Of a stretch of 64,000 nucleotides of DNA, positions 4,125-64,000 are shown one piece after another; the first letter of the stretch is position 1; the number at the start of each line of letters is the position of its first letter. Below the pieces are notes generated by a model. The model worked only from the letters and a program-made list of their open reading frames with translations. It had not been told where the DNA came from and did no database searches. Source of the stretch: Aplectana chamaeleonis (taxonomy: Eukaryota > Nematoda > Chromadorea > Rhabditida > Cosmocercidae). The stretch spans positions 124,001 to 188,000 of the forward strand of contig JAPDOI010000701.1 in the NCBI GenBank assembly GCA_029168955.1, written 5' to 3'. Both the position numbers and the translations under genes were made by a program.

Positions 4125-5762
4125 AGTACATAGGGCATCTGATGACGTCATCAGGGTGTCATGTAAAGTACATAGGGCATCTGATGACGTCATCAGGGTG
4201 TCATGCGTAAAGTACATAGGGCATCTGATGACGTCATCAGGGTGTCATGTAAAGTACATAGGGCATCTGATGACGTCATAAAGGGTGTCATGTAAAGTAC
4301 ATAGGGCATCTGATGACGTCATCAAGACAATGTCATGTAAAGTACATAGGGCATCTGATGACGTCATCAGGGTGTCATGTAAAGTACATAGGGCATCTGA
4401 TGACGCCATCAGGGTGTCATGTAAGGTACATAGGGCATCTGATGACGTCATCAGGGAATGTCATGTAAAGTACATAGGGCATCTGATGACGTCATCAGGA
4501 TGTCATGTAAAGTACATAGGGCATCTGATGACGTCATCAAGGTGTCATGTAAAGTACATAGGGCATCTGATGACGTCATAAGGGTGTCATGTAAAGTACA
4601 TAGGGCATCTGATGACGTCATCAAGATGTCATGTAAAGTACATAGGGCATCTGATGACGTCATCAGGGTGTCATGTAAAGTACATAGGCATCTGATGACG
4701 TCATCAGGATGTCGCGTAAAGTACATAGGGCATCTGATGACGTCATCAGGTGTCATGTAAAGTACATAGGGCATCTGATGACGTCATCAGGATGTCATGT
4801 AAAGTACATAGGGCATCTGATGACGTCATCAGGTGTCATGTAAAGTACATAGGGCATCTGATGACGCCATCAGGTGTCATGTGTAGCATATAGGCATCTG
4901 ATGACGACGCACATCAGGTTGTGATGTAAAGTACATAGGGCATCTGATGACGTCATCAGGGTGTCATGTAAAGTACATAGGGCATCTGATGACGTCATCA
5001 GGATGTCATGTAAAGTACATAGGGCATCTGATGACGTCATCAGGATGTCATGTAAAAGTATAGGGCACCTGATGACGTCATCAGGTGTCATGTAAAGTAC
5101 ATGGGGCATCTGATGACGTCATCAGGGTGCCATGTAAAGTACATAGGGCATCTGATGACGTCATCAGGTGTCATGTAAAGTACATAGGGCATCTGATGAC
5201 GTCATCAGGATGTCATGTAAAGTACATAGGCATCTGATGACGTCATCAGGTGTCATGTAAAGTACATAGGGCATCTGATGACGTCATCAGGGTGTCATGT
5301 AAAGTACATAGGGCATCTGATGACGTCATCAGGGTGTCATGTAAAGTACATAGGGCATCTGATGACGTCATCAGGGTGTCATGTAAAGTACATAGGGCAT
5401 CTGATGACGTCATCAGGGTGTCATGTAAAGTACATAGGGCATCTGATGACGTCATCAGGATGTCATAAAGTACATAGGGCATCTGATGACGTCATCAGGA
5501 TGTCATGTAAAGTACATAGGCACCTGATGACGTCATCAGGGTGTCATGTAAAGTACATAGGGCATCTGATGACGTCATCAGGGTGTCATGTAAAGTACAT
5601 AGGGCATCTGATGACGTCATCAGGGTGTCATGTAAAGTACATAGGGCATCTGATGACGTCATCAGGGTGTCATGTAAAGTACATAGGGCATCTGATGACG
5701 TCAACAGGGTGTCATGCAACATACATAGGGCATCTGATGACGTCATCAGGACGTCGTGGAAA
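4125..5762. repeat. 42-bp satellite with CRE/ATF palindrome, about 39 units
   Basis: Head-to-tail array of a 42-bp unit. Each unit is AAAGTACATAGGGCATC, then TGATGACGTCATCA, then GGGTGTCATGT. Nearly all units keep the 14-bp palindrome intact. Changes cluster outside it: GGG or GGA or G, a lost base, AAAG or AAGG. A few units break it, for example GACGCCATC near 4405 and 4865, and one scrambled unit near 4895-4910. Because 42 is a multiple of three, the array is open in several frames with 14-residue peptide repeats, which explains open frames up to 162 codons. The core TGACGTCA is the consensus site for CREB/ATF bZIP factors. Confidence 0.95.
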
Positions 5763-5862
5763 GTGAGAAGCGCTTCATTTGTAGCGTGCGCAACAAGTTT
5801 GTCGCTTACTGATTATTATAGCAATCCATGCTATTTGAATAATACTGAAGATTTCTTCATAG

Positions 5863-6515
5863 ATATTACTTCGTAATATCAATAAAAAGTGAACAATTCT
5901 ATCAAAAAGGGGTCTTCCAAGCGAAAGAGGTTTGGTTGGCGTCAGAAACGTTCCAACAAAAAGGGAACAATAGGTAAGTAGATTGAGGAGAGTCTACAAA
6001 AAGTGAACAATATTCTCTGAGAGTAATTTTCTTGGTGAACACTTCTTAACAGCAAAAACAAACCGTTGTGGCATTTTACGATGATGAGTTTAGTGTCTTT
6101 CGGAAAAAAAGACTTCTATTCGTTTAACGAGATTTTACGGAATTACTCTTGCTTAATGCTGTATTTCTATTTTATAGTTTTGCTTCTCCTTAGAGCAAGA
6201 CCTAACCATCTGTCTAAGTCTTTGCGACGTCATCTTCTATTCTGATGGTAAGAGTTAGGTTTACATGCACATACGTTTAAACGGTTCTTGCGTAATCAAG
6301 ACCATTATTGGAACCACAGAAAGCTTCCGTGTAGAACACCGCAACGGTTTGTTTTCGCTGTTAAGAAGTGTTCACCAAGAAAATTACTCTCAGAGAATAT
6401 TGTTCACTTTTTGTAGACTCTCCTCAATCTACTTACCTATTGTTCCCTTTTTGTTGGAACGTTTCTGACGCCAACCAAACCTCTTTCGCTTGGAAGACCC
6501 CTTTTTGATAGATAA
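5863..6515. mobile_element. Foldback element, copy 1 (about 170-bp arms)
   Basis: Arms at about 5902-6071 and 6339-6510 are reverse complements over about 170 bp with only about two mismatches. They start ATCAAAAAGGGGTCTTCC. The 270-bp centre is not palindromic. A small ATATTAC-loop-GTAATAT hairpin precedes the left arm and is shared with the second copy at 55187-56226, so it belongs to the element. No coding capacity. Confidence 0.85.
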
Positions 6516-7600
6516 ATATTTGAGTTAAAGATTGAATAAGTTGATTAGTCATTCAAGGATTAAGCAATAAGGTCAATAAATAAATAAACGAAAGAAAACA
6601 AAATGAACGAGTAGGTAAATAAATGAGGACTAGCTAAAAAGTGGGTTCACCATTTACTAAGTAAAGAAATCGGCAAAGTTAGTAAGTAATTAAATTCCAT
6701 AGGCAGGAATGTTTGAGCTGACAAGGAAATTTTTTAGCCGTATGTTTTAGTACAAAAAATGGCAACTAGTGAGAAATCTATTACTTCGAAATGCTTACCG
6801 AATGGTCGAGTGTCCTAGATTTTGTTTTTGAATATTATTTGATTGCTTGGGATTCTTGGTTACACGGGAAATTCGAAGAATCCTTTTTTTTCGAGCAAAC
6901 CGAGCATTCGAATAGTGCAACAAGCAAAATTACGATTCTGTGTTCCATAATTGTTCTTTTTGAATTCAAGGACAACTTGTGAATGTAAAAAAAGAAAATA
7001 ACTATTCTTACAATTAGTAAATTTTTGTGTACAAGAAGGCATGAGAACGCAGAAAAACATCTCCAAATCGGCAGCTACTGACGAGCTGCTATTCTCTATC
7101 TCAATCGAATCATTTAGAGCAAAACATATTGTTTGTGTAGATGCTTAACGTGCTAAAAACGAGAGGCGATCGAGTCTCTGCTCAAAAAAGAAAAATAGAA
7201 TTGTGGTATCAGCTCTCAAAATCGTCTGAATGCGAGAGAAAGATGGTGAATTCAAAATGAGTTATGGTTAATAAAAGATAAGGGCGAATTTCGTGCATTC
7301 ATTGACGGCCTACTAACCTTGATTACCACGAGAACAACAGGAAGAGCACCGTTCCTTATAGCGCAGTGCGATGCACGCGAACTTTGGCTCGCGTACGTTG
7401 CCTTGACGGGTTCGATTCTATCAGTGCAGCGAGTTTTGCATTTGTGGCTGCTACCTCCTCGCGTTCAACCATTGGTTAACAAGCGGCTTGCGTGACGTAT
7501 CCTCACGGTCAGTAGGCGGCTAACTCATGGGCAGCGAGCATTTAACCCGCAGCTGAATTTCGCTGTTTATCTGCGGTTAACGTACTGATTACTACCACCC
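6516..7600. other. Right interior of the 5.6-kb element
   Basis: AT-rich DNA with AAATAAAT runs to about 6640, then apparently single-copy sequence, then a GC-richer end (7310-7600) with GGTTAAC/GCGGTTAA subterminal motifs mirroring the left end. Short open frames of 60-70 codons show no domain. I see no gene. Confidence 0.45.
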
Positions 7601-7603
7601 CAG

Positions 7604-8804
7604 TTTGCACTTTGGCCGGCTGGCAGCGCCTTTCTTTTCGTCCTCTGCGCTCATCATACTGACTCGGACATCCCGCGCGCCGGGTTGCCAATGCTCCGAA
7701 GACCTCTTGAGAAAAGAGTAATACTGGATGATATCATAGCACACACATTAAGCTGCATTCTGAGGCTCAACGCTCAGGACATGAGAGTAAATCTCAAAAA
7801 AAGTATATGAAACACTGGTAATTTCGTGGGTTTATTTTGTTGAAGAATTCATGTAGAGCTTTCTCAGGCATCATTCAATACTGCCAAGCGCCGACACACT
7901 GACTCTGGTGTATTTTCACGTCATCCCATCAAATAGCTGTTGATGGGAGCAAGGCATCAGAATAGCAGACTAGTGTGGACGGAGGAGTACCTTCACTATA
8001 CTCCACAGCAATGGAAAAAGTAGTTTTTCTAGCTGAATCTGGTGCTCCAAACGAACGAGTTGCTTTTTGTCTCGATGTTGCTCAACTTTGTTCGCCTTGA
8101 CTCGTTTTTGACGTTTCCAACGGCATAGGCGTCCTAATTGGAGCCCGGGTTACGCATTTATCTTACCAACTTTTTTGAGCGTGTCTGCTGCCTATAAAGC
8201 ATTCCCTATGAGATTCGTGGAGTAATTCAAATGTTGAAACATGGTTCAATGAGGGTTTTCTTGTTATGTAAGTTCGCTCCTATTGTACCTTCATCCACTT
8301 GTTCAGATGTGCGTTTTACCAAAACAACCGGGAATTTAACTGTTAGGGTTTTTCAACTTATGCCTTTCTGTTCCTGAAGAAGCTATGACAGAGATCAGCC
8401 AGAACTTCATCGAAAACAACTTGGCACTGCGTCTCGTGATAAATTCTGACTGACTCTAGTATAGTGAGTCGGGCGATGGATAATTCATATTCGCAGAGAA
8501 GCAATTTACCCCACGCACTGATTTTCAAAAAAAGTCTAGACTAGGAGAAGTGAAAGAAACTCCTGGCGTCTGCATGGACATTCCGCTCTCTATTATATAT
8601 TCTTTGAAGAAACGTAGACTGTTGCTTGCCGTAACGATTGGCTTCTGCACCACTCGCTTATCATTGAAATTGGGCGATCGCATGTGAATAACATGCGATT
8701 CTTGCCGGCAACGCGGGAGTAGAGTGAAGGACATGAGGTCGAGAATAGGAAAGACCATAAACTCAAACGAAGATACTTTGAAAACGGAATTCTGAACTGC
8801 TTAC
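7604..8804. other. Low-repeat stretch, no clear gene
   Basis: Outside the 5.6-kb element. No tandem or long inverted repeat is obvious. At 8525-8690 the minus strand could hold a last exon for the gene whose exons lie at 8805-9087: a frame compatible with the donor at 8804 starts after a weak acceptor (GGTGCAG) near 8650 and runs about 33 codons to a stop. This is speculative. Confidence 0.3.
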
Positions 8805-20077: not shown

Positions 20078-22833
20078 CACACGATGGCCACCACCCACAG
20101 AAAGCAAAGCCACCTACATACCTAAGAATTTTGAAGCGCGAAACCATTTTCCCGACGTCATGTTCGATGCGTTGTACGCATACTCCCTGCGTACAACCCA
20201 TCGAACCTGAGGGGGAAATACACAAACGGTGACAATTATTTTTTCATAGATTTCTTCGAACAGTTTTTCTTCTTTCTTTGATTTATCTGTGATGTTTTTT
20301 TTCCTATTAATCTGTTCTTGGTGGACTTACCTACCCAAAAACATCAAAAACTATAATACGGCTTCTTATCGTAAACACTGCCTTTAAATAAACGCTCAAT
20401 CGAAAATTCGTACAAGTTCAAAACGCCGTCAGTCTGGACAAAGTTTGGAAAATGTGCCTTCACCCAAGCTTTGCTCAGGAGGATAGTTCTGGCCGCTGAA
20501 CACATTTGTGAGGTCCGTTTCTGGATTCTCCGAAGACTAATGCGCTTTCTGGAAGGTACAAAAAGCACAAAAAAACGACATTTTCAAGCTTGTAACTTCT
20601 TGGAACCAGCAGCTCGGGGCGAGGTACTGCGCAATTTTACTATTGAACCACATGAGATACCACCGATACTAGTCTTTCTGGCAGATGCGCTTATCACTCT
20701 AAACACTTCCCCTTGTAAGACAGGAGCCCAGATTCCCAAACAGGGGTGTGCGTAATTACGGTTACGACATTTTGGACCGTAAATCGTAATTTTCCGTAAA
20801 TAAAAATACATGCAATGGAAGTAAATCACAAGACATCTCCAATTGACCTGCTCTAATCCCACTTTGCGTATACTAATGTTTTTGATCAGGAGATGGAGTC
20901 AACCCAGGCGTGTTACTACAGCACGATCCCTTTACCATTCTTTAACGTGATTCTATCATTATAACCCGGGACACACGGTCGGAGTTGTAGGCGCTGGCTA
21001 ACAGATCCGCGATGCTCGCCGCGCACGTCTCAATAGCTGCCGCCTACGTCGCAATGCAATCTAAAATCGCTCTTCACAAGGAACTTCGTTTTCGAGTTTT
21101 TCATGAAGATCAACTTTCCTGATTCGCATAACTAGATTAGCGTCAAAACATCGAGCGAAGCAGTCTAATCAATCAAAAAATCGCTTCAAATAGTGCTCTT
21201 GGCCCGCCTTTTGAGTAGATCAGGGCTACTCAGAGTTTACGAAAATCACCACGAGGATTCGTTTTTTATCCCAAAAGTTTGAAGATAAAAACCGCTTCCT
21301 CTAGTTGATTTCTCTTCATCCGCAGCAAACGGACACTCAGAAAAGGCGCAAGTGCTAGTTTAAACGCTCATCTTCGCCCCTATTCTGAAACCGTTATCTC
21401 TCACTAATGCGAGCGTTTGGTGGGGCGCGTTGGCTACATGCTTTACTAAACTATGGGGACTAAACTACACAAAGCGGCAAAAATTAGAAAGCGGTTCTTT
21501 TTGCTCACGTTTCCTTTGAGAATCTATCGTATCGTCACCATAAAGCTACGATTCTGCAAGTGATTTAGTGGATTCACGAAAGAATAACGTGTGCTGGGCG
21601 ACCGATACTGTGCTCTAGATAATTTAGAGTTGGCACGGATCGGACTGATACTTTGCCATCTCTATTGAAGGTTGGCGCAAGCTTGATGCCATGTTTTTTT
21701 AACGTACGTGTACCGAGTTTGAGCCAACCTTCAGTAGGGAACTCGAAGTACCAAATGTACAGCATATGAGTGCGTTCCCTACTGACTGTATGTATAATCG
21801 GTGTTGCGGTTCCACAAGCAAATGAGGGGAGTTCTCCAATTTGGCTGTGGAGAATCGCTTAGATACTGTGATTTTGGCTTAACTCTTACAACGGTTTTAG
21901 CGTTTCAGTAGAGGCATTACGAGTATAATTGTGTCTCTGTTGCCCGCGGACAGCTGAATCGGACATGCGGATTTCTCAAGATCTGGGAAGGAGTTGTGGA
22001 ATGAGTGGTAAAGCAAAGCAGAGAAATACAGGTAAGACGATCACATTAAGGGTATGGTATACTTTCACGAGACACGGTCGCGTGGCTCTGCACAGCGATA
22101 GCGACCGGCTGTCGCGGAGCTCCCGCCCTTTAAACCTGTCGCATTCACAGAGCGCTGCACAGCGACAGGCTTCGGCGCATTTGAAGTATGTCAGCCCTCC
22201 GCGACACGTCGCTGCGGCTGACGCGCCATAATTGTTCCTACGGCAACCGATGCCGCTGCTCCGATGCAGGTCCCGCGACGAAATTTGAAATTTCATTTAC
22301 GCGCACCCCTGTTTTTAAAGTTACCCTCACATGCGAGTTTTGAGCAAAATCCAAAACTTTTCTCAGAAATTACCTGCTAGGTGGTACTCTCACCAGAGAG
22401 CAAAGCTTAAAAAACACCTAAGATAGTCCTCAGTCTTGTGCATAATTCGTCGCGTGTGCGACGGCTTCGCGGCGACAGAGAGTCCTCAACGACGTATTCG
22501 GTCATCGGCCGGTCGCCTGCGAATGGAGTTGACTCAATATTGCGTCCACTACGAAATGCACACGTTATCATCTTGACAGGATGCACCTTCATCTCCTCTC
22601 ATTGATAGGGTCTAATGTTCTGTACTCTAGAACCAGTTCATTGTGGGTGCTCAACACGGAGCTGGACATCGTTTTTGTCCTGCCCCTTTTTTTACCTGAT
22701 CACGCTGTGTGTGAGGTGATTTGTTAGATTTTCGATTTGACTGAATTTCTATCTATGCAGACTTCCAAAGCGCTGATCACTGATAAGATACTTCTTTCAA
22801 TCTGAGAGAGTCATGTAATGTGGCTGAATGACG
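20078..22833. other. Mixed unassigned DNA with M1 end and small palindromes
   Basis: An M1-type right end (TATCGTAAACACTGCCTTTAA) lies at 20370-20390. A palindrome with GGTTGGCGCAAGC and the inverse GTTTGAGCCAACC is at 21640-21760, the same core as at 58330 and 62690. 22070-22160 has CGACCGG/CTGCACAGCGA repeats. Open frames of 60-110 codons show no domain. I see no gene. Confidence 0.45.
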
Positions 22834-23632
22834 TGTCGCGGATGGGGAGCCCGGCCTGTCCTAGCGACCGCTTCGGTTCCCGGGTCTCCTCGTCGCGGAC
22901 TACATTGGCGGTGTTGTGTGTCTTCCGGCTAACACTTGCTCTCCGGTACAATCCCTTTTCGGGGAAGGTACCTTCTATGTGAGGATCACCTGACTGACTG
23001 TCGTGTGAACACTGAGGCAAATACCTGCCCGCGTATTAGCGCATTACATAACACAGCACATGAATATAAATTATAACCCTTTTATCCTTATGGCACTAAA
23101 ACCTAAGGTATCTACTGGGTTCGCCTTTACAAACACTTAGGGTTCCGTTTGGCTCATATCCACAGACGCGTATTATAGTAGCGAAGTATACCACGGCGTA
23201 ATAGACAAGCGGAGTACGTGGTAGCGTATTATCGCACCTCTTCCACTAGCCGATCGCACATTCCTGTGGTGACTAATACCAGAAGCCGATGTGGCTCGAC
23301 CAACCTCCAGGTCGCTCGGCCAAAGTCGAGCCGGCGCCCGAACGCCGGCTTCCTCAACAGCAAAGGCTGCTGGAGGACGGGGTCACCGGTTCCGGGGTCT
23401 CCCGGGAGGCCACCACTGCCGAAGCAGTGCTGTACCAACGGGTACTGTAGGCCAACGCCATCCGGCGCCGGGCAGACCACTGAACCGAGGACAGCCGCCT
23501 TATATAGGCAGAGCGGAGGAAGGGGGTGGGGCATAGCGGCAAGCGCGGGCATGCCCCTACTCCAAGCGGCTGGCGTAGTAGAAAGAGGCCGGGCGCTCAC
23601 GGTGCGCCCCCAGCCACCGTCGCATCCGCGAC
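22834..23632 (-). repeat. BEL 3' LTR (799 bp, intact)
   Basis: Perfect 10-bp inverted ends TGTCGCGGAT/ATCCGCGACA. It contains four exact copies of GCGTANTA on the plus strand, near 23030-23235. The same 799 bp, interrupted, form the right LTR. The plus frame of 313 codons starting at 23218 runs across this LTR and the adjoining tandem repeat and is not a gene. Confidence 0.9.
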
Positions 23633-23859
23633 ACTCCCGACACCAAAGAATTGCTGCCAAGGGACCGCAGAAAACGGGGCAACAGAGGCTGGGCCACCGA
23701 GAGATCCCAATCAAGCGGATTATAAATTTTACAGAAAGGAGGCAGCAAAAGTTATGCTGCGGGGATGAGCCAGCGCATTATGAGCCTTTACACACATTTC
23801 TCTACCTAACGAGGCGAACCCTCTCACTCATAACAAGGGCGAAATACGATGCAAAATAT

Positions 23860-24780
23860 GTACACGAGCCCTCGTCAGAAACGGGCTTGAGTGGCATAAG
23901 ACCTCACCTCAAAAAGAACCGGAAAACAAGAATATACATACATACATACATACATACAAGCCCTCAGCAGAAACGGGCTAGAGGGGCTCAAGGCCTCACC
24001 TCAAAAACAGAGTGTAGGGGCTTAAGGCCACACTTCAAAAGAACATACGTACACTATATACAAGCCCTTATTAAAAACGGGCTAGAGGGGCTTAAAGGCA
24101 GTGTCCACGATAAAAATCGTTTTCGAGTTTTCACCAGAAAACGAAGGTTTAGAATCTGACTGTTTTATCAGTGAAGAGAGAATCATGAAAAACGTTGCGA
24201 AACATCCAAAATCAGCTCTTCTTCTTGAAAGCCACATCTCAGCGGTGGATGTGTTGCGCGGGCATGGTCCTGAACTAGACAGGGTGCGCAAATGCGCCTC
24301 AATGCTAGAACTCAGCCGCGCTCGCGCTCCAATGCTAATATAGAAGCGGACCAAACTGTTCCTCGGGAAACTCGACTGCGAGCGTAAGGGCTAGCGCGAG
24401 CGGCCTCCGGAGCCGTATAAAGCTTTTTCGGGCTCGTTTTCGTTCGTTCTTTCGACCCCAGTGCTCCAATCAGACCCTGAACTTTCGATTTCCGGCCAAT
24501 CCGAGGACGAAGTTTATCGTGGACGCTGCCTTTAAGGCCTCACCTCAGAGAAAAGCGTAATACATACATGCCCTCGACAGAAACGGGCGAAGGGGGCTTA
24601 AGGCCACACCCTAAAGAATAGAGGGGATTAAGGCCTCACCTCAAAAACCGGTAGATCAAAAAAAAACTAAAACTAAGACGAAACTACCTACGGCCCTCAG
24701 TTCAAACGGGCGAGGGGCTTATGGCCTCACCTCTAAAAGCTCACACAAAAAACGAGCTACATCACGAAACAAAAACAGCG
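23860..24780. repeat. Degenerate tandem repeat upstream of BEL 3' LTR
   Basis: At least six units of about 60-75 bp built on CAAGCCCTC, GAAACGGGC, AGGGGCTTAAGGCC and CACCTCAAAAA. One unit is split by an M1-type MITE (24096-24531) inserted in the CTTAAGG of the unit. CATACATACATA microsatellite runs occur between units. In retrotransposon orientation this lies where pol would be expected. Confidence 0.8.
24096..24531. mobile_element. TTAA MITE, M1-type, nested in BEL
   Basis: 436 bp flanked by TTAA (24092-24095, 24532-24535). Left end AGGCAGTGTCCACGATAAA; right end TTTATCGTGGACGCTGCCT. The target was the CTTAAGG of a BEL tandem unit, so it post-dates that amplification. Confidence 0.88.
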
Positions 24781-24979
24781 AAATAAATGTGAAAAAATAC
24801 AAGACTAAAAACTAGAAAAGGCTGAGCTAAATAGATCACAAAGTATGTACAAGCCTTCTTGCAATGCCATCAGGCATACCATAGTCGATCCATCCATCGC
24901 ATATATAGAATATATATCATCTAGTCGACCATATAGCATGCCATCCATTCAGCGCCACAGATCCGTCAGAATACCATGA

Positions 24980-27630
24980 CGCATCCAACCAGGCATCTCC
25001 GAAGGCGCGTACTAAGCGTATTAGGCGGCAAACGATCTGAAATCAAGCAGATAGAAAACAAGATCAAAATTTGTACAAATTTGCCACCAGCGTAGTATAA
25101 CCTAGCAATTAATGCCAGGCTAAGGCGTAATAAGTCTGACATAAGTAGATCAGACCTGCGTAGTAGAGTCTGCCTTAGTGGTCTAGACTGTAAAAACGTA
25201 TTAGCTAGTCAGCCACTATGGGCAGGACTAGGCGTAGTGGATTGCGTACTACAGTATACTACAAGGGAGTTATACCGAGCGTACTGTAATCAATATTGAC
25301 TCGCGTAATAAAAGAAATAAACAACGCGTATTCGAATGGCGTATTACAGCATACCACGAGAAGGGCTATAATAAGCGTAATATGGTTAATTATTACTAAC
25401 CAGCGTATTGTGGTTAAGAAAATATTAACCAGCGTAATAAACAAAATATACCACGCGTAATCAAACGGCGTATTACGTATCACTGCGTACTAAACAATAC
25501 TTGCTCGACTGGCGTATTAACAAATGCTGGACCTTGGTCCATCCTCCCAACTTGGAGAGAAAATGAGACCGCGGTTTTGTCATAGCAAGTAATGTTGTAA
25601 GCGTAGTGTTTCGCTTCACAATGAAGCGAATGCGGAATAAGAACTTTATAAATTTTGCAATAAACATGCGACCTAAGGCCGACTACGCTTACACGTAGTC
25701 GCCGCGATATTCGCGATCGGCGATGTTTGAATCGCTGTCGCGCGTACTACTGCTCGCTTCAGCGAAGCGTCTGTAGAGCGTAATATGATGTACTCTCTCA
25801 CAGTGGGAGCACTCTGAGGCTGCGCATTCTGCTACGGAATGAGATTTAGCAAAACACTTCAGACAGAGTTTGTCTGCGTGAGCTATGTGTTCTCGAACCG
25901 TGCGCGTATTAACATAGCGGCATTCTCCTGGCTTGCGCCCTTGCCGAATGCAAAGAGCATACCGGGAGGAGTATAATGCCTGTTGCGTATCATCCTTCTG
26001 CGCATTATCTCCATGCGTATTATGACGAAAGTTTCGCCTCCGCATTGGGCTTCTAGAAAGGTGTCTAGAATGTTTTCTAGGCGGATTATCATGCGAATTA
26101 GTATGCGAACTATAAGGCGTATTATTGGAAGGCGCGTATTGTAAACTCGGTGCTTTGCCGGACAATGTCGTAGCGACATGTCCTGGCTCAACAGATTGAG
26201 AGTTTTTTGCGTAGGCGGAATACTAGATTCATCAGATCTGATGCGTGAAAGCATCATCTCAAGCGAAATAAGAAGTGACTGAGCTTCAGCTTCGACTATT
26301 TGTTCACCACTGGAAATCCAGAAGGAAATTTCGTCGTGTTCAGACCGTTGCTGACCCACTTCCAATGGCGTAGTAATGTAGTCAATGAAGCTGGACCACA
26401 AATCGCGTAATTATGCAAGATCCCGAGCGACGAAAGCATGAGAGATCATTAGAGATCGTTCCCTTTCACTTCCATGACAATGAAAATCTTGAGGCGTATT
26501 ATTCAACTGAATACCTCCCAGGAGACTCAGAACAACGGAATGGCAAGTGTCCCTCAATCGCTGAATCCTCTTGAGGACTTCTTTCTTGTGAACTGCAGCT
26601 TCCATAGTGGCCGACGTTGACCAGCGGAGTAGTAGTGAGGGGTTGAATAGCGGAATAGAAGTGGGGATTGAATAGCGAAATAGGAGTGAGAGCGGAGTAG
26701 GCGTGCCGATAACCAGTGCGAAGTGCAATCGATGAGCTTGTTTACGACTTCGCATGACCTTTTCGGCGCCGGCGGAGTATGGGAAAGTGCAGTGCCGTCT
26801 GGCACTCTCTCACGCGGGAGAGAATCTCTCGCGTGGGAGAACGCGCTAGCCTCTGCGCTCTCCAGCTAAATAGTGTGACGTAGGCTGGGAACGGCCAGCC
26901 ACGACAACTTACAGCGATATTGATCGCTCATGCATATTGAGGCTAAATTTGAGGACGCCCAGCGCAATAGGAGGCGAAATAGGGGAAAAACCAAGGTAAG
27001 AGGATGAATATAGGGTAAAACTGGGGTGAAGAAGAAGAAAATGAGGACGAGAAGAGTAGGAAAAGGGATCTAAGGGCAGTTTCGGGTCAAAATGATCAAA
27101 ATATGACCAAATTGAGCGTAATAAGGAGAAAAAAAGATAGAGAGATCGAGGAGGAGGAAAATAGCGGATAACCAACAAAAATTGAAGTTTCTGAGGAAAA
27201 CGTCACAAAAAGCAAAAAAATATGAATTTAGCGTTTTAAAGGTGAAATTTTGAGGGAAAAAACGACGCGTATTAGGAGAAAAAAAGGTACAAAGATTGAA
27301 ATAGTAAAAATAGCCTTGGTTGTGGGATAAAATCCTGCGTAATAAGCCAGAAGCAGAACCTGAAGGAGATGCCCTTTAGAGGTTTTTAGTGCTGAAAAGA
27401 TGGAGAATAAGCGTAATATAGGTGTACGCTTCCGATTTTGGCTAATCGGGCGCGGAATTTGACCCAGGTCAAAGGGACTTATTGAGGTGAGAATGCGAAA
27501 AGGAGGGGAACCCAAATAACCCGAAGCGACCTCACAAGTAGAAATTTTGCTGGCCATCCAGAGGAACGCGCGCTGAGGGCAAACGATCTATGAGTAAATA
27601 CCACCACCTAGGCCAGCGCGTAGTCCCTTC
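24980..27630 (-). repeat. Dispersed, strand-biased GCGTANTA motif field
   Basis: Reading the plus strand by eye I count 23 exact GCGTANTA octamers between 25007 and about 27411, plus about ten one-base variants such as GCGTAGTG, GCGTATTG and GCGTATCA. The opposite orientation is almost absent. The octamers are not at a fixed spacing and run through both gag and non-coding parts. Four more lie in each LTR. Away from the BEL element I did not see a comparable cluster. On the retrotransposon sense strand the motif is TANTACGC. Confidence 0.85.
25689..26605 (-). pseudogene. BEL/Pao gag, disrupted
   Basis: Minus-strand start at 26605 (MEAAVHKKEVLKRIQRL), typical of the start of BEL/Pao Gag. The frame continues through an in-frame TAA at about 26411 and then EHDEISFWISSGEQIVEAE. 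A frame change around 26150 leads to the C-terminal nucleocapsid part in the 25689-26165 frame. That part shows the BEL/Pao zinc-knuckle spacing: CIRQGRKPGEC, then LCLKCFAKSHSVAEC, then CSHCERVHH. The segment between (about 26000-26150) is Asn/Ser/Pro rich and full of the TANTACGC motif. No pol follows. Confidence 0.8.
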
Positions 27631-28028
27631 TGCGACCCGTGCAAGAAGGTACCGCAGCTTCGCCAACTACGAGAAGTGATGCAGGATTCGTCTACGTGAC
27701 GCCCACACTGCACCAACGGCAACTCGCTCAGGGGTCCAAAGGACGGGGCAAAAAACCATCCCGGGCATTACGCCTCTTCCGGTGTTGCGCGCTGAGTGCT
27801 CAATCTGACGGGGCTGCCACCTCCCGCCTAAATTTGCACCCACACCTTCGGAAACGCTTAGGCATCCCGGTCTGTGAGGCATGATAACCCAAGGTTGGGG
27901 ATGAAAAACCGCCACCCGGGACCTACAAACTAACCCATTACCATTTTAACAGATGACCCGGAAGACACGTGGAGTGCCCATTTTGCTCACTACCTCGGGG
28001 GAGTAGGAGTACTTGGGATCGAATCACA
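26606..28028 (-). other. BEL 5' leader region
   Basis: Between the right LTR and the gag start, in retrotransposon orientation. 26900-27560 on the plus strand is purine-rich (GAGGAGGAAAATAG, GGGAAAAACC). It holds four exact copies of the octamer. 27560-28020 is GC-richer with no repeat seen. No open frame with a domain. Confidence 0.55.
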
Positions 28029-28379
28029 GGGCGGACTGGGGGAGCCCGGCCTGTCCTAGCGACCGCTTCGGTTCCCGGGTCTCCTCGTCGCGGATTGCAT
28101 CGGCGGTGTTGTGTGTCTTCCGGCTAACACTTGCTCTCCGGTACAATCCCCTTTCGGGGAAGGTACCTTCTATACGAGGATCACCTGACTGACTGCCGTT
28201 TGAACACTGAGGCAAATACCTGCCCGCGTATTAGCGCATTATATAACAGAGCACACGAATATAACTTATATCCCTTTTATCCTTACGGCACTAAAACCTG
28301 AGGTATCTACTGGGTTCGCCTTTACAAACACTTAGGATTCCCTTTGGCTCATATCGACAGACGCGTATTATAGTAGCGA

Positions 28380-28947
28380 CTCAGACGATCACCGAATTCA
28401 ATGCGTGTCGAATATGCATTCAACTCGAAGACAAGGTGTTTTCGAGCTCAGTTAGTGAACGTGCTACTAGGAAAGCACGTGCTCTTATTGTGTTTCAAAT
28501 CACAGCACGTGCCCCAACAAATAAGCCATCCAATGCGCGCATGATAAACATTCAACACGATGACAAAACGATTATCCAAAACAGGAAAGTATACGATGCA
28601 CTCCTGAGACGGAATTGAGAGGTCGGCAGCTTCGCCGGTTCAATTAACCAAGTTTGCAGTACTTTATCCGCCCCACCGCTGGAGGCCTCGTCCAACCTCT
28701 GACGGCCCCAGGTGGTGCTCGGCGGGCTGGCCGCGTCGCACGTTGGTGTGTGCTACTACAATAACGCTGGACTACCTTGCAGCACGTACCCCTGTGATTG
28801 AATTTTATGGCACATGCTTCTGCTATGAAATTTTGCAGCACGTGCTGCTGTTTGGAGCTTGTGTCCCTGTGATAGAGCCTTTCGATGAGTGTGGTCACTC
28901 GCGTTGAATGCATATTCGACACGCATTGAATGCGGCGATTTCCTGAG
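28380..28947. mobile_element. Inverted-repeat transposon, CTCAG termini, 2-bp TSD
   Basis: 568 bp inserted in the right LTR; the left LTR shows the empty site. The flanking duplication is GA (28378-28379, 28948-28949). Terminal inverted repeats are about 45 bp, with the inner 22 bp (around ATTCAATGCGTGTCGAATAT) perfect. The outer ends read CTCAGACGATC and CTCAGGAAATC. The inside has several GCACGTGC motifs and no transposase; frames are at most 60-164 codons without a domain. The same end motif is on the element at 42769-43854. Confidence 0.88.
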
Positions 28948-29025
28948 GAAGTATACCACGGCGTAATAGACAAGCGGAGTACGTGGTAGCGCATTATCGC
29001 ACCTCTTCCACTAGTCAACTGCACA

Positions 29026-31252
29026 ACACACTTCAAACAGGCTGACATGGAAACTATTAAAATGCACCTGGAAGCTGTCGATTGGTATGGCTCTCTCAAT
29101 TCAGTGGATACTGTAGATGCGAAGTATGAGTTATTCATTTCTGTGCTTCATCATTGCATCGATTTATACGTGCCTCTACGAAAAATTACCTCTAAGAACT
29201 CTGGACTCCCACCCTATTTAGAATCGTTGAGCAACCTAAGGTCTCGTGCTTGGGCAGAAGCAAAATCTTCAGGTAATATGAACCAATTGACTCACTTCAA
29301 AAACCTGAATGAAAAGTTTAACAAGAAGTTGAGGAAATTCAATGCACAGGTGGAAAAGAAGGTGATAACGTCCGGGAATAAAACTGCATTCTACAGGTTG
29401 ATGAAGTCAAGGCTACGTGAAAAACACCCCATAACTGTTTTGAAGTACGACGGAAGGGTTATAAGAGAGGATTCGGATAAGGCAGAACTATTAGCTGAAA
29501 TTTTTCAAAGTTCATTCTCTTGCTCCACAGAAGATATTTCAATTCACGAAGGACTTTCTCCTCGGTTCCCTGTTATGGAAGACTCTGTATGGTTCGAGAA
29601 AAATGAAATGCTAGACCTACTTTCGAAATGGCCTCAGTCCCAATCACTCACGCCCGATGAAGTCCCACTTTCGTTCCTAAAAACCATTGCCTACATTATT
29701 ATTGGTCCTTTAGAGTATATTTTTAACCTCAGTTTTATGGAGGCAAACGTCCCCACTAGATGGAAATGTTCCTATGTAACCCCTATTCCTAAAAAACCAC
29801 CGTACACTGAGCCACTGAATTATAGGCCTGTTAGCTTAACGTCGATTTTCGCTCGTCTTTTTGAGAAAATCTTGAAAAAACGAATTGTGGATCATCTCCA
29901 GAATTTTTCCATTATACCTTCCAATCAACATGGGTTCCAGAAAGGAAAGTCAACTGTCACTGCTATGGTTGAAGTTTTAAATGACTGGACTAAGCACGTG
30001 GATGAAGGCAAAAGCGTGGATGTTGTATTCTTCGATTTTTCGAAAGCTTTCGATAGAGTCCCACATCAAAAATTGATGCTCAAGCTCGAAATGGTCGGAG
30101 TTCATCCTAGAATTATTGCGTGGCTCCGTTCATTCCTCTCTGATAGAACTTTTTCTGTTCGTATGAAGAACTCGTTTTCAAGCTCCAGGCCGGTTCATAG
30201 TGGAGTTCCACAGGGTAGTGTACTCTCCCCAATACTATTCAATATATATACGTTCGAATTGTGCGACATAATTCGCGGCCACGATGTAGAGTTTTGTTCA
30301 TTTGCAGACGACCTCAAAATTTACCGTGTTGCAGATAGCCAAGCAGATAACGGCGCGATTCAAGCAGCGATAAATTCTATTACTAAATGGTCTCAAGAGT
30401 GGGAGTTGCCTTTGTCTAAAGAGAAAACTAAAGTTTTGCACATAGGGACTCGAAATAGGCACCATGCGTACAATATTCAAGGTACCTCAATTGCACTAGC
30501 GGAAGAAGTAAGAGACCTCGGATTTCTGCTTACCAAAAATCTCAGTTTCGACAAACACTGTGACAACATCTCTATGAAAGCAAGTAGAATGGTCAACAAC
30601 CTTTTCCAGAGCTCTTTCAACGCAAAATACCAGTGTTTTGATTCATGCGTATAAGTGCTATGTAAGGCCTATAATGGAATATGGTACACCAGTGTTTAGC
30701 CCATACAAGCGGAAAAGCATAGAAAAGTTAGAAAGAGTGCAAAATGGTTTTACAAGAAAATTAATGATAAGATCGCACGGGATTCTTTATGAGCAAATAC
30801 CTTCGAGTAAAGAAAGGAATGAAAACTTTGGGTTGCAGAAGCCTTTCGATGAGAAGGAAAATGTTCGATCTTCTTTTGCTTCATAAAATTCTCCACGGCC
30901 AGTGTGGTCTACGATCTGCGAACCTCTTCACAGAGAGGGCTTCAGTCACTAGAGGGGTACATTCAAGCTACAACTGAAAAGAGCCAGGCTAGACTGTAGG
31001 CGTTACTTCTTTATTAATAGAACAGTGCCATTGTTTGAAAGACTTTGCAGAACATCCGCAACTCCTTTTAGCCGCAACTTATTCGAAAAGCTCATTCTTA
31101 GTAGTTTCACATCCTGATGCTTGCCTATACTGTTCTCACTGCCATTACAACTTCTCGTGTTTATGTGATTTCATTTGTTATTAGCTGGTTTCAATTGAGC
31201 TACTCTTATTCCTTTCACATAAGTTAATCTTATGTAATAAACATACATACAT
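29026..31252 (+). mobile_element. 5'-truncated CR1/jockey-type LINE
   Basis: 2227 bp inserted in the right LTR between GCACA and CCCTGTGG; the left LTR shows the uninterrupted join. It starts in the linker between endonuclease and reverse transcriptase and ends in AATAAACATACATACAT, a short tandem tail rather than poly-A, as in CR1-like LINEs. The 5' half (ORF1 and endonuclease) is missing. Confidence 0.88.
29047..31117 (+). pseudogene. LINE reverse transcriptase, 5'-truncated and frameshifted
   Basis: The first frame is open from 29047 to 30654 (535 codons). It holds the RT core: motif A FDFSKAFDRVPH (Asp about residue 330), motif B GVPQGSVLSPILF (about 386-398) and motif C FADD (about 419-422), all intact. 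After AKYQC the frame changes. The C-terminal domain continues as YVRPIMEYGTPVFSPY and LERVQNGFTRKL in a second frame (30638 on), as SLSMRRKMFDLLLLHKILHG in a third (30830 on), and finally RARLDCRRYFFINRTVPLF and FEKLILSSFTS to TGA at 31117 in another. At least three frameshifts lie in the last 0.5 kb. The missing N-terminal half is due to truncation at insertion. Confidence 0.9.
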
Positions 31253-31629
31253 CCCTGTGGTGACTAATACCAGAAGCCGATGTGGCTCCACCAACCTCCA
31301 GGTCGCTCGACCAAAGTCGAGCCGGCGCCCGAATGCCGGCTTCCTCAACAGCAAAGGCTGCTGGAGGACGGGGTCACCGGTTTCGGGGTCTCCCGGGAGG
31401 TCACCACTGCCGAAGCAGCGCTGTACCAACGGGTACTGTAGGCCAACGCCATCCGGCGCCGGGCAGACCACTGAACCGAGGACAGCCGCCTTATATAGGC
31501 AGCGCGGAGGAAGGGGGTGGGGCATCGCGGCAAGCGCGGGCATGCCCCGTATCCAAGCGGCTGGCGTAGCAGAAAGAGGCCGGGCGCTCACGGTGCGTCC
31601 CCAGCTACCGTCGCATCCGCGACATGACG

Positions 31630-45066: not shown

Positions 45067-45129
45067 TCAGATGTTATGTACAATCATTCGAGGTAAAGAT
45101 TAGAATGAGCACTTTTTGAAAAGAGACCG

Positions 45130-45395
45130 AACGAACCAAGTTCGAATAAATTCATTCATTTCTTATTTAGAACGAACGAATTTCGAATAAATTCGTTCAT
45201 TTTTTATTCCGAACGAACGAATTTCGAATAAATTGGTTCATTTTTTATACCGAAAGAACTAATTTCGGATAAACTCGTTCATTTCTTATTTCGAACGAAC
45301 GAATTTCGAATAAATTCGTTCATTTTTTGATTCCGAACGAACGAATTTTGAATAAATTCGTTCGTTTTTCATTTCAAACGAACGGATATCCGAAT
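45130..45395. repeat. GAACGAATTTCGAATAAATTCG array (about 41-bp unit)
   Basis: About six head-to-tail units of GAACGAA, TTTCGAATAAATTCGTTCAT and TTTTTATTCC, spaced 41 bp. Each unit is itself nearly palindromic. A 45-bp-stem hairpin follows at 45610-45790 (CATAAGCCAGCCAGATTGG paired with CCAACCTGGCTGGCTTATG). Confidence 0.85.
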
Positions 45396-50842: not shown

Positions 50843-51228
50843 TAGACTTGGTACCGAATCGAAAACATATTCGAAAATTAATCGATTAGTTCGAATACTC
50901 GAGCATTCGATTATTCGATTTATTCGGGAATTTGAATTCTGAGGTTTATTCGAATATTCGATTTATTCGAAAATTTGAATTTTGGATTTATTCAAATATT
51001 CGATTTATTCGAAAATTTGAATTTTGGATTTATTCAAATATTCGATTTATTAAGAAATTTGAATTTTGGATTTATTCGAATGTTCGATTTATTTGGGAAT
51101 GTAAATTTTGCATTAATTCGAATAATCGATTCATTCGTGAATTGAAATTTCGGGGTTTATTTGAACATTCGGCCAATTTCGGTGCCCCATATTCGAATTA
51201 GACCGGTAACAGGCGACTCATCCCAGCA

Positions 51229-52249: not shown

Positions 52250-53540
52250 CGAGCACACGGCTTAGTCCGGCCACAACGGAGGGGGGGGGTTCCTACCTCA
52301 GTAAGCATACGCATCGACCGGGACGGCCACTAGCGGGACAAGTGGGATCAGTCGAGACAAATCGGGGGGGGGGGCAATTTCGACCTGAGTAAGCAAAGCA
52401 TTGAATACGTATCGACCGGGCTGGGTACAGCATATAGGCCGACCATGGCGGGGCCATTATGGAAGCCTATCTTAGTGCTTGGTCGTAGGTCCGATCCCTC
52501 CCCCCAGCGAACGTCGAGGGGTTTAACCCAAGAATGTGCGGAAATTTAATTCAGTAAACAAGAAGTCCAGTTTGTCAGAAAACAGAAACAGAAGACGCAA
52601 GCGGCTAGAAAACAGAAATCTACGCACACGCACGGTCCGACCTCTTCCATGTGACACATAACGCCTCGCGCCGTAGCCTGGGGCGGGATTCGCGAAGCGC
52701 TAACCACGTTTTAGCCATGGCTACCGTAACCACGGTTAAGCACATCGTGTGTGAATCGATTGGCCTCAAACCATGGCTAAACCGTGGTTATCGTTTCGTG
52801 AATTCGTGACCTGGTCGGGAAAGATTTACTTGGCAAGGAGTGGCGCAGTGATGTTGTCTGGTTGCTTTTCCCCTCCTCATCTTGAGATCTAGCACAGCAC
52901 CGCATACAAACATTTTGCCGAAAAATTATCTAGCGGCCATTGATGAATTGATACCCGTTCAAAATCGCAAAGTCACATCTGCCACTACCACAGTGGCCGT
53001 TTTCTGCTTAAACGGGATCATTGAGTCTGGAATTCTTCCGGTAATCTCCAAATAGTCCCCGTTTTGACGGTAGTTCACGAAAAAAGGTCTCCGAGCCCCT
53101 CAAAAAAAATTGAAAGTTCCGCTGCGGTCCTGATCTCGATTTTGAAATGTCGAATATTATTCGAATATCCGAATAGGGTTCAAAAATTCGAATAGTTGGC
53201 CGACTTTTCGAATGTATTCATTCATTTGGAAATTTTTAGAGGCCCTGTTCGAGTGCATTCATTTATTTGGAAATTTTTAAAAGGCCTTATTCGAATGTAT
53301 TCATTTATTCGAGATTTTTTAAAAAGCCTTATTCGAATGTATTCATTTATTTGAGATTTTTAAGAGGCCCTATTCGAATGTATTCATTTAATCGGGATTT
53401 TTTAAAAGGCATTATTCTAATGCATTCATTCATTCGGAAATTTTTTGAAAGGCCGTATACGAATTATTCATTCATTCGTAAACTGGGGTCGAATGCCCAT
53501 GTATAGTGTTCACGATAATCTACGAATTAAAGATAAATGG

Positions 53541-63677: not shown

Positions 63678-64000
63678 TTACCCAACGCAAGATTGGAACA
63701 TGTTGAGAACCAACTTTGCGAGTGGGAAGTGGGTAAAATAGCAGTGCTTGGGTTTCGGTACGCTGTGCGTTTCGGGCTTCCATAAAAACGTATCCTTCTC
63801 GAAACTTGTGTGAGCGTGAATAAACTTGGCCATCACGCTGTCTATGGAGAGATACTCGTTTTCCATGACGCGGCGCACGCTTGTCATAGTGTGCGACTCA
63901 TCTTCCATGAAGCGGCGCACGCTTTTCATAATGCGCGACTAATTTTCTATGACGCGGAGGACGCTTCTCATAGTGTGCAACTCATCTTTGATGAAGCGGC
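63678..64000 (-). pseudogene. Coding-like minisatellite, runs off the window
   Basis: Minus strand, from the window edge: 42-bp units encode a 14-residue repeat (types RFMEDESHTMTSVR, RVIENxSRIMKSVR, RFIKDELHTMRSVL), then about 55 non-repeat residues ending FQSCVG and a stop at 63678. One unit has an in-frame TAG (about 63942). The composition is helical and charged, and changes between units mostly keep the pattern of Met/Val/Arg positions, which hints at past selection. Family unknown; the array continues beyond 64000. Confidence 0.4.

Follow-up and report, generated by a model that had tools for sequence, protein, structure and literature searches.

A BEL/Pao retrotransposon in the nematode Aplectana chamaeleonis carries many copies of a short motif that has accumulated on one strand. 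The element lies within a 64,000-nucleotide stretch of contig JAPDOI010000701.1 (assembly GCA_029168955.1, positions 124,001 to 188,000 of the forward strand), referred to here as the window and supplying the coordinates used below unless another locus is named. The motif is GCGNANTA on the plus strand, or TANTNCGC when read in the sense (minus) strand of the element, and between 22844 and 29025 it is present 58 times on the plus strand and not at all on the minus strand; the remaining window has 8 and 14, respectively. We tentatively interpret UANUNCGC as a site recognized sequence-specifically in the sense (genomic) RNA of this one BEL/Pao lineage and read by the element's own zinc-knuckle protein for packaging, and put the chances of this somewhat short of even.

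The original prediction, made by eye, described a narrower octamer with seven fixed bases, GCGTANTA. The 23 exact plus-strand matches that it reported proved to be real and even more numerous, with 24 on the plus strand and none on the minus strand of 24980-27630, and 34 and none in the whole window, 33 of the 34 being within the element. Both long terminal repeats (LTRs) carry the octamer as proposed, with five in the left and three in the right rather than four in each, and one-mismatch sites in 24980-27630 number 27 on the plus and 8 on the minus strand. About 0.2 had been expected by chance; over 2000 dinucleotide shuffles of 24980-27630 the octamer averages 0.26 and never exceeds three. 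The motif had, however, been drawn too narrowly: a listing of every GCG in 24980-27630, with variants tested, shows that the fourth letter is free too, giving the broader GCGNANTA.

Letter preferences and strand counts were determined in five sense stretches totaling 25,330 bases, in which there are 283 motifs in the sense and 7 in the antisense orientation. Replacement of sense positions 2, 4, 6, 7 or 8 by any other letter gives counts near background, T is preferred at position 1, and positions 3 and 5 are free, with A favored and G disfavored at position 5. The code is a sharp six-letter rule within an eight-letter motif, borne almost entirely by the sense strand. The seven antisense motifs are close to the 4 to 5 predicted from the window flanks (20 in 55.2 kb, both strands), so the motif has accumulated on one strand with no sign of avoidance on the other. 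Spacing is irregular (mean 94 nt and coefficient of variation 0.82 in L079, a locus described below), and no periodicity was seen. This agrees with the earlier view that the octamers are unevenly spaced and are not a satellite. A satellite or mainly tandem origin is rejected: where the motifs lie, Tandem Repeats Finder detects three short arrays, and the flanks of adjacent sites in L079 are little more alike than those of random pairs (mean 0.303 versus 0.259), with one pair at 0.83.

The signal belongs to the element rather than to its location, since transposons inserted within the element are nearly devoid of the motif (Table 1). As the original prediction held, it runs through both gag and non-coding DNA, being present in the gag remnants and in the LTRs, the array and the 5' and 3' regions. 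Genome-wide (1.037 Gb) the octamer is strand-symmetric (36514/35084) and falls below its reversed control (45275/45803); it is thus not enriched genome-wide, and a host-wide motif is rejected. Same-orientation motif pairs number 1474, versus 391 for the reversed control.

Relatives of the window element share the pattern. The genome contains at least 42 matches to the LTR and at least 42 to the array, and in all 30 array loci examined (77-100% identical, one of them the window copy) the motif counts are 23 to 48 for one strand versus 0 to 3 for the other. Five LTR-paired copies, L039-L043, have 62-68 versus 0-2. Motifs on both strands are present at LTR loci L026, L029 and L044, and each of these has two oppositely oriented LTRs. 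Loci L067 and L079 form a single neighborhood (C1367, about 774.5-786.9 kb) that represents a pol-bearing relative, with, in order, gag (DUF1759), protease, reverse transcriptase (RVT_1), Peptidase_A17, Integrase_H2C2 and DUF5641; its 5' LTR was not found within the stretch examined. L067 contains 44 motifs versus 0 on its opposite strand and L079 contains 90 versus 3 (134 versus 3 in total), distributed over the LTR, the array, an open reading frame after pol (ORF3), pol, gag and the 5' region, and the possibility that the motif is peculiar to pol-less copies is therefore rejected. The original prediction of a trans-recognition code that lets a pol-less element use the proteins of a partner is in keeping with the sharing of the motif between the two kinds of copy, but it is the pol-bearing copy that has more sites, pol itself included. 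All three opposite-orientation motifs that the pol-bearing copy contains are clustered between integrase and ORF3 (L079 1429-1659, starts 1429-1648), and two of these overlap forward motifs as near palindromes.

A large number of the sites are in coding frames. To compare them with expectation we permuted synonymous codons, keeping both the protein and the codon usage, in 13 open frames that we selected as Pfam-supported or neighboring frames at L039, L041, L042, L043, L067 and L079 (some with short overlaps). There are 155 motifs observed and 22.6 expected, and each of the 13 frames is above the maximum of its own 2000 permutations; the reverse complement of the motif is present 0 times with 2.0 expected. 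The majority of the coding sites (121 of 155) are read as T-ANT-NCG-C, a frame that places three of the six fixed letters at third codon positions and in which a stop is impossible. When gapped patterns of the same shape were compared with 60 permutations in a set of eight frames, all from L079 and L067, the motif was the single large outlier, at 88 versus 11.15 with a score of 22.7, the next being 5.8. Composition or codon bias as the cause is rejected by both analyses. The motif is under strand-specific selection at the nucleotide level and is written largely by silent codon choice.

The sites are also conserved between copies. Across 30 array copies the diversity of the fixed motif letters at 12 sites of 25000-25410 is 0.034, compared with 0.120 for the spacers (p 4e-4) and 0.126 for spacer CpGs; the comparison excludes the site at column 203 of the alignment (2 copies) and that at column 414 (12 copies). 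The value for spacer CpGs rejects CpG conservation as the cause. Plus-strand position 6, a free letter, has a diversity of 0.210 in this array and is more variable than its surroundings, judged from few sites. A more distant comparison, of L079 with L041 over 2218 aligned columns (stretches of the 5' region, gag and pol; 72.5% identity), shows that 13 of the 18 sites in L079 are shared with L041, which has 17, and that 91.7% of the fixed letters of the L079 sites are kept compared with 72.2% of the free letters. In these alignments the conservation pattern is that expected of a sequence-specific site under purifying selection.

RNA structure around the motifs has weaker support. Spacers in the array can often form small hairpins with their ends near motifs, and in a ten-helix structure 96.5% of cells are paired over the 30 copies and 34 cells are double-changed versus 13.2 in shuffles (0 of 500 as high), although the helices were hand-drawn from the same sequences and the slid control consequently favors them. 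RNAalifold gives a partly different fold of the array alignment, to which covariation contributes little (-1.99 of -53.75). In the LTR, the loop of a stem consists of exactly a motif, 5-6 nt and a second motif. The closing pair of this stem in 32 distinct contexts is G-C in 18, U-A in 6, A-U in 1 and unpaired in 7; these contexts are distinct sequence stretches and perhaps fewer insertions, and the search pattern fixes part of the stem as well as the motif letters. A second two-motif loop, closed by AATCG/CGATT, lies inside gag (L042 2875-2905, L043 3979-4009 and L079 7370-7400) and is present also in L039, L040 and L059. The array and the LTR have putatively conserved hairpins, and display in a loop may be important only at particular sites; a chain of hairpins throughout the element is unsupported beyond the array, the LTR and the one gag site.

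Two proteins of the element are candidate readers. Three CCHC-type knuckles are recognizable, by eye and by pattern, in Gag of this BEL lineage, and knuckles were found by one or the other means in L079, L042, L043 and L058. ORF3 is a second zinc-knuckle protein frame that follows pol and lies beside the array; its CCHC frame is intact in 14 of the 15 loci L064-L078, and in 10 of those 14 an Arg/Ser-rich tail is in frame with the knuckles. The L067 ORF3 is broken by a stop at 2353-2355, inside the first knuckle, where other copies are open. In gag-bearing copies of other groups (e.g. L058, L059 and L060) it is instead the gag knuckles that adjoin the array. The ORF3 and Gag knuckles have weak BLAST similarity (E 0.023) and their cysteines align. 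Pfam searches with ORF3 pieces gave no match above the cut-off and one sub-threshold match to SLBP_RNA_bind (E 0.1), and a protein search with ORF3 piece P0003 retrieved no homologue (2218 candidates, E 0.001). A viral contig scan found no relative. Change at third codon positions of ORF3 is not in excess (0.049 versus 0.046 and 0.044; 14 of 15 loci, L073 with 105 bases covered being dropped), so this test offers no separate evidence for translation of ORF3. At ORF3 motifs of L064-L078 some free letters, at codon positions 1 and 2, vary at 0.089 and 0.137 versus about 0.045 in the surroundings, in few sites.

We infer from the one-strand, sharp and codon-fitted motif running across the transcript that recognition is best placed in sense RNA rather than in single-stranded cDNA. 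The protein would read single-stranded A-N-U-N-C-G-C, with U preferred before it, and would presumably be the element's own Gag or ORF3 knuckle protein, with packaging as the probable purpose. With more than 100 binding sites, each pol-bearing RNA would be favored cargo over host RNA and the RNAs of other BEL elements. Every extra site would confer a small advantage in competition for particles: more sites would attract more nucleocapsid, the RNA would be packaged more often, and further sites would be favored in turn. Such a small edge per added site would explain the accumulation in the LTR, gag, pol, ORF3 and the 3' array. Pol-less copies that keep their sites could ride in the same particles and keep pace. 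In its full form, the proposal is that the whole genomic RNA acts as an address label read by the element's own zinc-knuckle protein or proteins and common to pol-bearing and pol-less members, with the copy number of the code itself selected in particle competition; we regard this as possible, while leaning slightly against it.

Several observations weigh against recognition by an element-encoded protein for packaging. Packaging signals do not as a rule require more than 100 copies, and a host RNA-binding protein would leave identical traces. Motifs at coding sites are predicted to be no more accessible than with shuffled flanks (0.548 versus 0.541, n=106, 8 of the 13 frames), and the excess accessibility of array motifs is not significant (0.523 and 0.571 versus 0.452 and 0.507). 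Across 24900-27630 the unpaired value of the motif letters is just a little above that of the remaining letters (0.525 versus 0.464), with 4% of circular shifts as high. A longest-stem test of 42 spacers is not significant (Fisher p 0.28) although the mean folding z is -1.55, and the number of pairs with double changes in the ten-helix array is 5 versus a shuffle mean of 5.1, with no excess. In addition, plus-strand position 4 of the array sites is free between sites and yet conserved within a site, with a diversity of 0.067.

Dispersed packaging signals of a comparable kind are known. Those of human parechovirus 1 are a loose GxU presented in loops and are reported not to be identifiable by simply searching for a repeated motif (PMC5431903). 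That system resembles the one here in having many short sites across a coding genome; the parechovirus sites are recognized sequence-specifically within stem-loop loops, and their multiplicity aids assembly (PMC5431903). The A. chamaeleonis element likewise has many copies over its genomic RNA with constraint at the nucleotide level. Some of its motifs would be in the loops of the LTR and gag hairpins or act as linkers in the array, and coding sites show no excess accessibility. It differs in that the rule is a sharp six-letter one, in that it is in a retrotransposon, and in that binding by a protein is a proposal.

A rather unlikely alternative is that a host RNA-binding protein reads the motif in sense RNA and aids the long unspliced transcript through export, translation, or protection from splicing, decay or small-RNA silencing, sites having accumulated because more of them yield more usable RNA. 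The evidence for nucleotide-level selection on the sense strand applies equally to this explanation, and motifs covering the whole transcript, rather than a single leader signal, would suit it. It sits poorly with the genome-wide deficit of the octamer relative to its reversed control, and the recurrent loop filled exactly by two motifs has the look of a dedicated site. A host factor should also serve other BEL lineages, but by coordinates, among the matches listed, 5 of 7 Peptidase_A17 matches have no motif pair within 10 kb and 2 of 7 do (A17 hits on contigs C1 to C16:48 kb, from the 150 scored of 1073 candidates, compared with only the first places of the motif-pair list).

Recognition could instead be of DNA, with an element or host protein binding the same-orientation copies and keeping the integrated element open, either as an anti-silencing system or as an insulator array; this we consider unlikely. 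The LTR and 3' array are plausible as regulatory DNA. The gypsy retrotransposon has an insulator array of about a dozen same-orientation sites for the DNA-binding zinc finger protein Su(Hw), and is thus an LTR element with repeated protein sites in one orientation, yet these are confined to a single leader segment. A closer parallel is the motif YAGTATTAY of VANC21, which is dense and in one orientation in VANDAL21 transposons of Arabidopsis (PMC5735166). As in that family, many short motifs in the same orientation are carried here by one transposon family; they are not enriched genome-wide. It follows from VANC21 that strand bias alone, which the original prediction took as pointing to reading in RNA or during minus-strand synthesis, is compatible with binding of duplex DNA (PMC5735166), although RNA remains the most consistent reading. 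VANC21 sites are in duplex DNA, mainly non-coding and spread by tandem repetition (PMC5735166), whereas many sites here are in coding frames above the expectation from codon usage, few are tandem repeats, the flanks of neighbors are hardly alike, and stems partly covary. Binding of duplex DNA also leaves the 283:7 orientation of dispersed sites and the covarying stems unexplained.

A role in reverse transcription is quite improbable. The motif would act in single-stranded cDNA (as GCGNANTA on the minus strand) or through template contacts, in strand transfer, nucleocapsid loading or plus-strand starts, and the strand specificity and hairpins fit minus-strand cDNA equally; the motif is not a purine tract, though, and periodic spacing was not seen. 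Base pairing with a small RNA, another of the roles suggested originally, is a poor fit, given that two internal positions are free and the adjacent ones nearly invariant. That the pattern is an artefact, whether of composition, codon bias, repeats in the proteins or some mutational process, is very improbable and is already contradicted by the present results. Such an origin could draw on the dominance of a single frame among the coding sites, on disordered proteins rich in N, S and T, and on a few sites inside short tandem repeats (25374-25439, 25419-25466 and 26623-26690), but codon permutation does not yield the observed number, one-letter neighbors of the motif are near background, co-located inserts are nearly without it, and the fixed letters persist while most free letters drift.

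Recognition of sense RNA by the element's own protein would bear on how retroelements distinguish their RNA from that of the host and how non-autonomous copies enter the particles of a partner, for which the usual object of study is one structured leader signal. A plain octamer would be a countable recognition system in which the number of motifs can be varied by synonymous change. The coding sequences also appear to hold a rare record of selection on an apparent RNA-binding site, because the free and fixed letters within each site act as internal controls.

Assignment of the element to BEL/Pao is right, as related copies match DUF1759 (L079, L042, L043 and L039) and Peptidase_A17 (L041). The order reverse transcriptase, A17, integrase and DUF5641 is present in L079, relatives have a DUF1759 gag with CCHC knuckles, and the window element has TG...CA LTRs and a target duplication. 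Among named proteins, those nearest to the A17-integrase piece come from Ancylostoma duodenale (41% identity over 98%) and A. ceylanicum (38% over 94%). Nippostrongylus has a shorter match, and arthropod proteins, at about 30%, rank behind Ancylostoma. Judged by these relatives, the host would probably be a strongylid. The domain order of L079, the 5-bp target duplication in the window and the Ancylostoma and Nippostrongylus relatives are shared with the BEL/Pao elements (Belpaoviridae) of nematodes. The present lineage departs from them in being saturated with a one-strand octamer and in having another zinc-knuckle frame after pol; a search of the open-licence literature found no account of either feature, nor of a comparable saturation in LTR retrotransposons outside BEL. 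One A. duodenale protein recovered in the P0012 search is labeled ubiquinone biosynthesis protein COQ7 and has Pao peptidase and integrase domains; the gene model probably overlies a BEL element and has been fused or mis-annotated. At L042, an RVT_1 frame (5868-6698) is probably part of another inserted element rather than BEL pol, because it is on the strand opposite to the gag of that copy, and 7588-8740 contains internal tandem repeats of about 80% identity.

The features of the window element are listed in Table 1. It is bounded by TGTCGCGGAT at 22834 and ATCCGCGACA at 31624 (TG...CA) and flanked by the 5-bp duplication TGACG at 22829-22833 and 31625-31629. The two LTRs are identical at 757 of 795 compared positions. 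Self-comparison and the longer LTRs of other copies show that the 5' LTR is in three pieces, split by a miniature inverted-repeat transposable element (MITE)-like insert and a long interspersed nuclear element (LINE); the repeat shared by 23258-23633 and 31249-31624, considered as a separate element, was rejected as such and is LTR split by the LINE. No pol frame was seen in the window copy (22834-31624), and its gag pieces, in which knuckles were seen by eye, have no Pfam match.

Table 1. Coordinates of the BEL/Pao element and its parts in the window, with counts of GCGNANTA.
Feature	Coordinates	Strand	Description
BEL/Pao element	22834..31624	-	Sense order LTR, gag remnants, array, LTR; interrupted by later insertions
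3' LTR	22834..23633	-	About 800 bp; 9 motifs on +, 0 on - (counted over 22844-23633)
LTR hairpin	23189..23223	-	7-bp stem, 23189-23195 with 23217-23223; loop of motif 23196-23203, 5 nt, motif 23209-23216
3' region upstream of 3' LTR	23634..24999	-	Degenerate repeats; MITE-like insert 24088-24539 without motif, flanked by 3 and 2 motifs
Densest array	25000..25688	-	Exact motif 14 on +, 0 on -; small hairpins possible in many spacers
Gag remnants	25689..26809	-	Several frames; 18 motifs on +, 0 on -; zinc-knuckle end on array side (by eye)
5' region between LTR and gag remnants	26810..28038	-	6 motifs on +, 0 on -
5' LTR, inner piece	28039..28379	-	Last in sense order; 3 motifs; 95% identical to 22844-23184; inner end approximate
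MITE-like insert in 5' LTR	28380..28947		49-bp terminal inverted repeats; motif 0 on either strand
5' LTR, middle piece	28948..29025	-	3 motifs
LINE insert in 5' LTR	29026..31248	+	RVT_1 6.5e-40; presumably CR1-like; motif 1/1
5' LTR, outer piece	31249..31624	-	First in sense order; without motif; 96% identical to 23258-23633

Searches of the window with Rfam and for tRNAs gave no match. Elsewhere in the window there is a tandem array of 39 copies of a 42-bp unit at 4125-5764, and further arrays with periods of 41-42 bp are located at 164-510, 1710-1944, 45127-45384, 50905-51171, 53207-53482 and 63854-64000.

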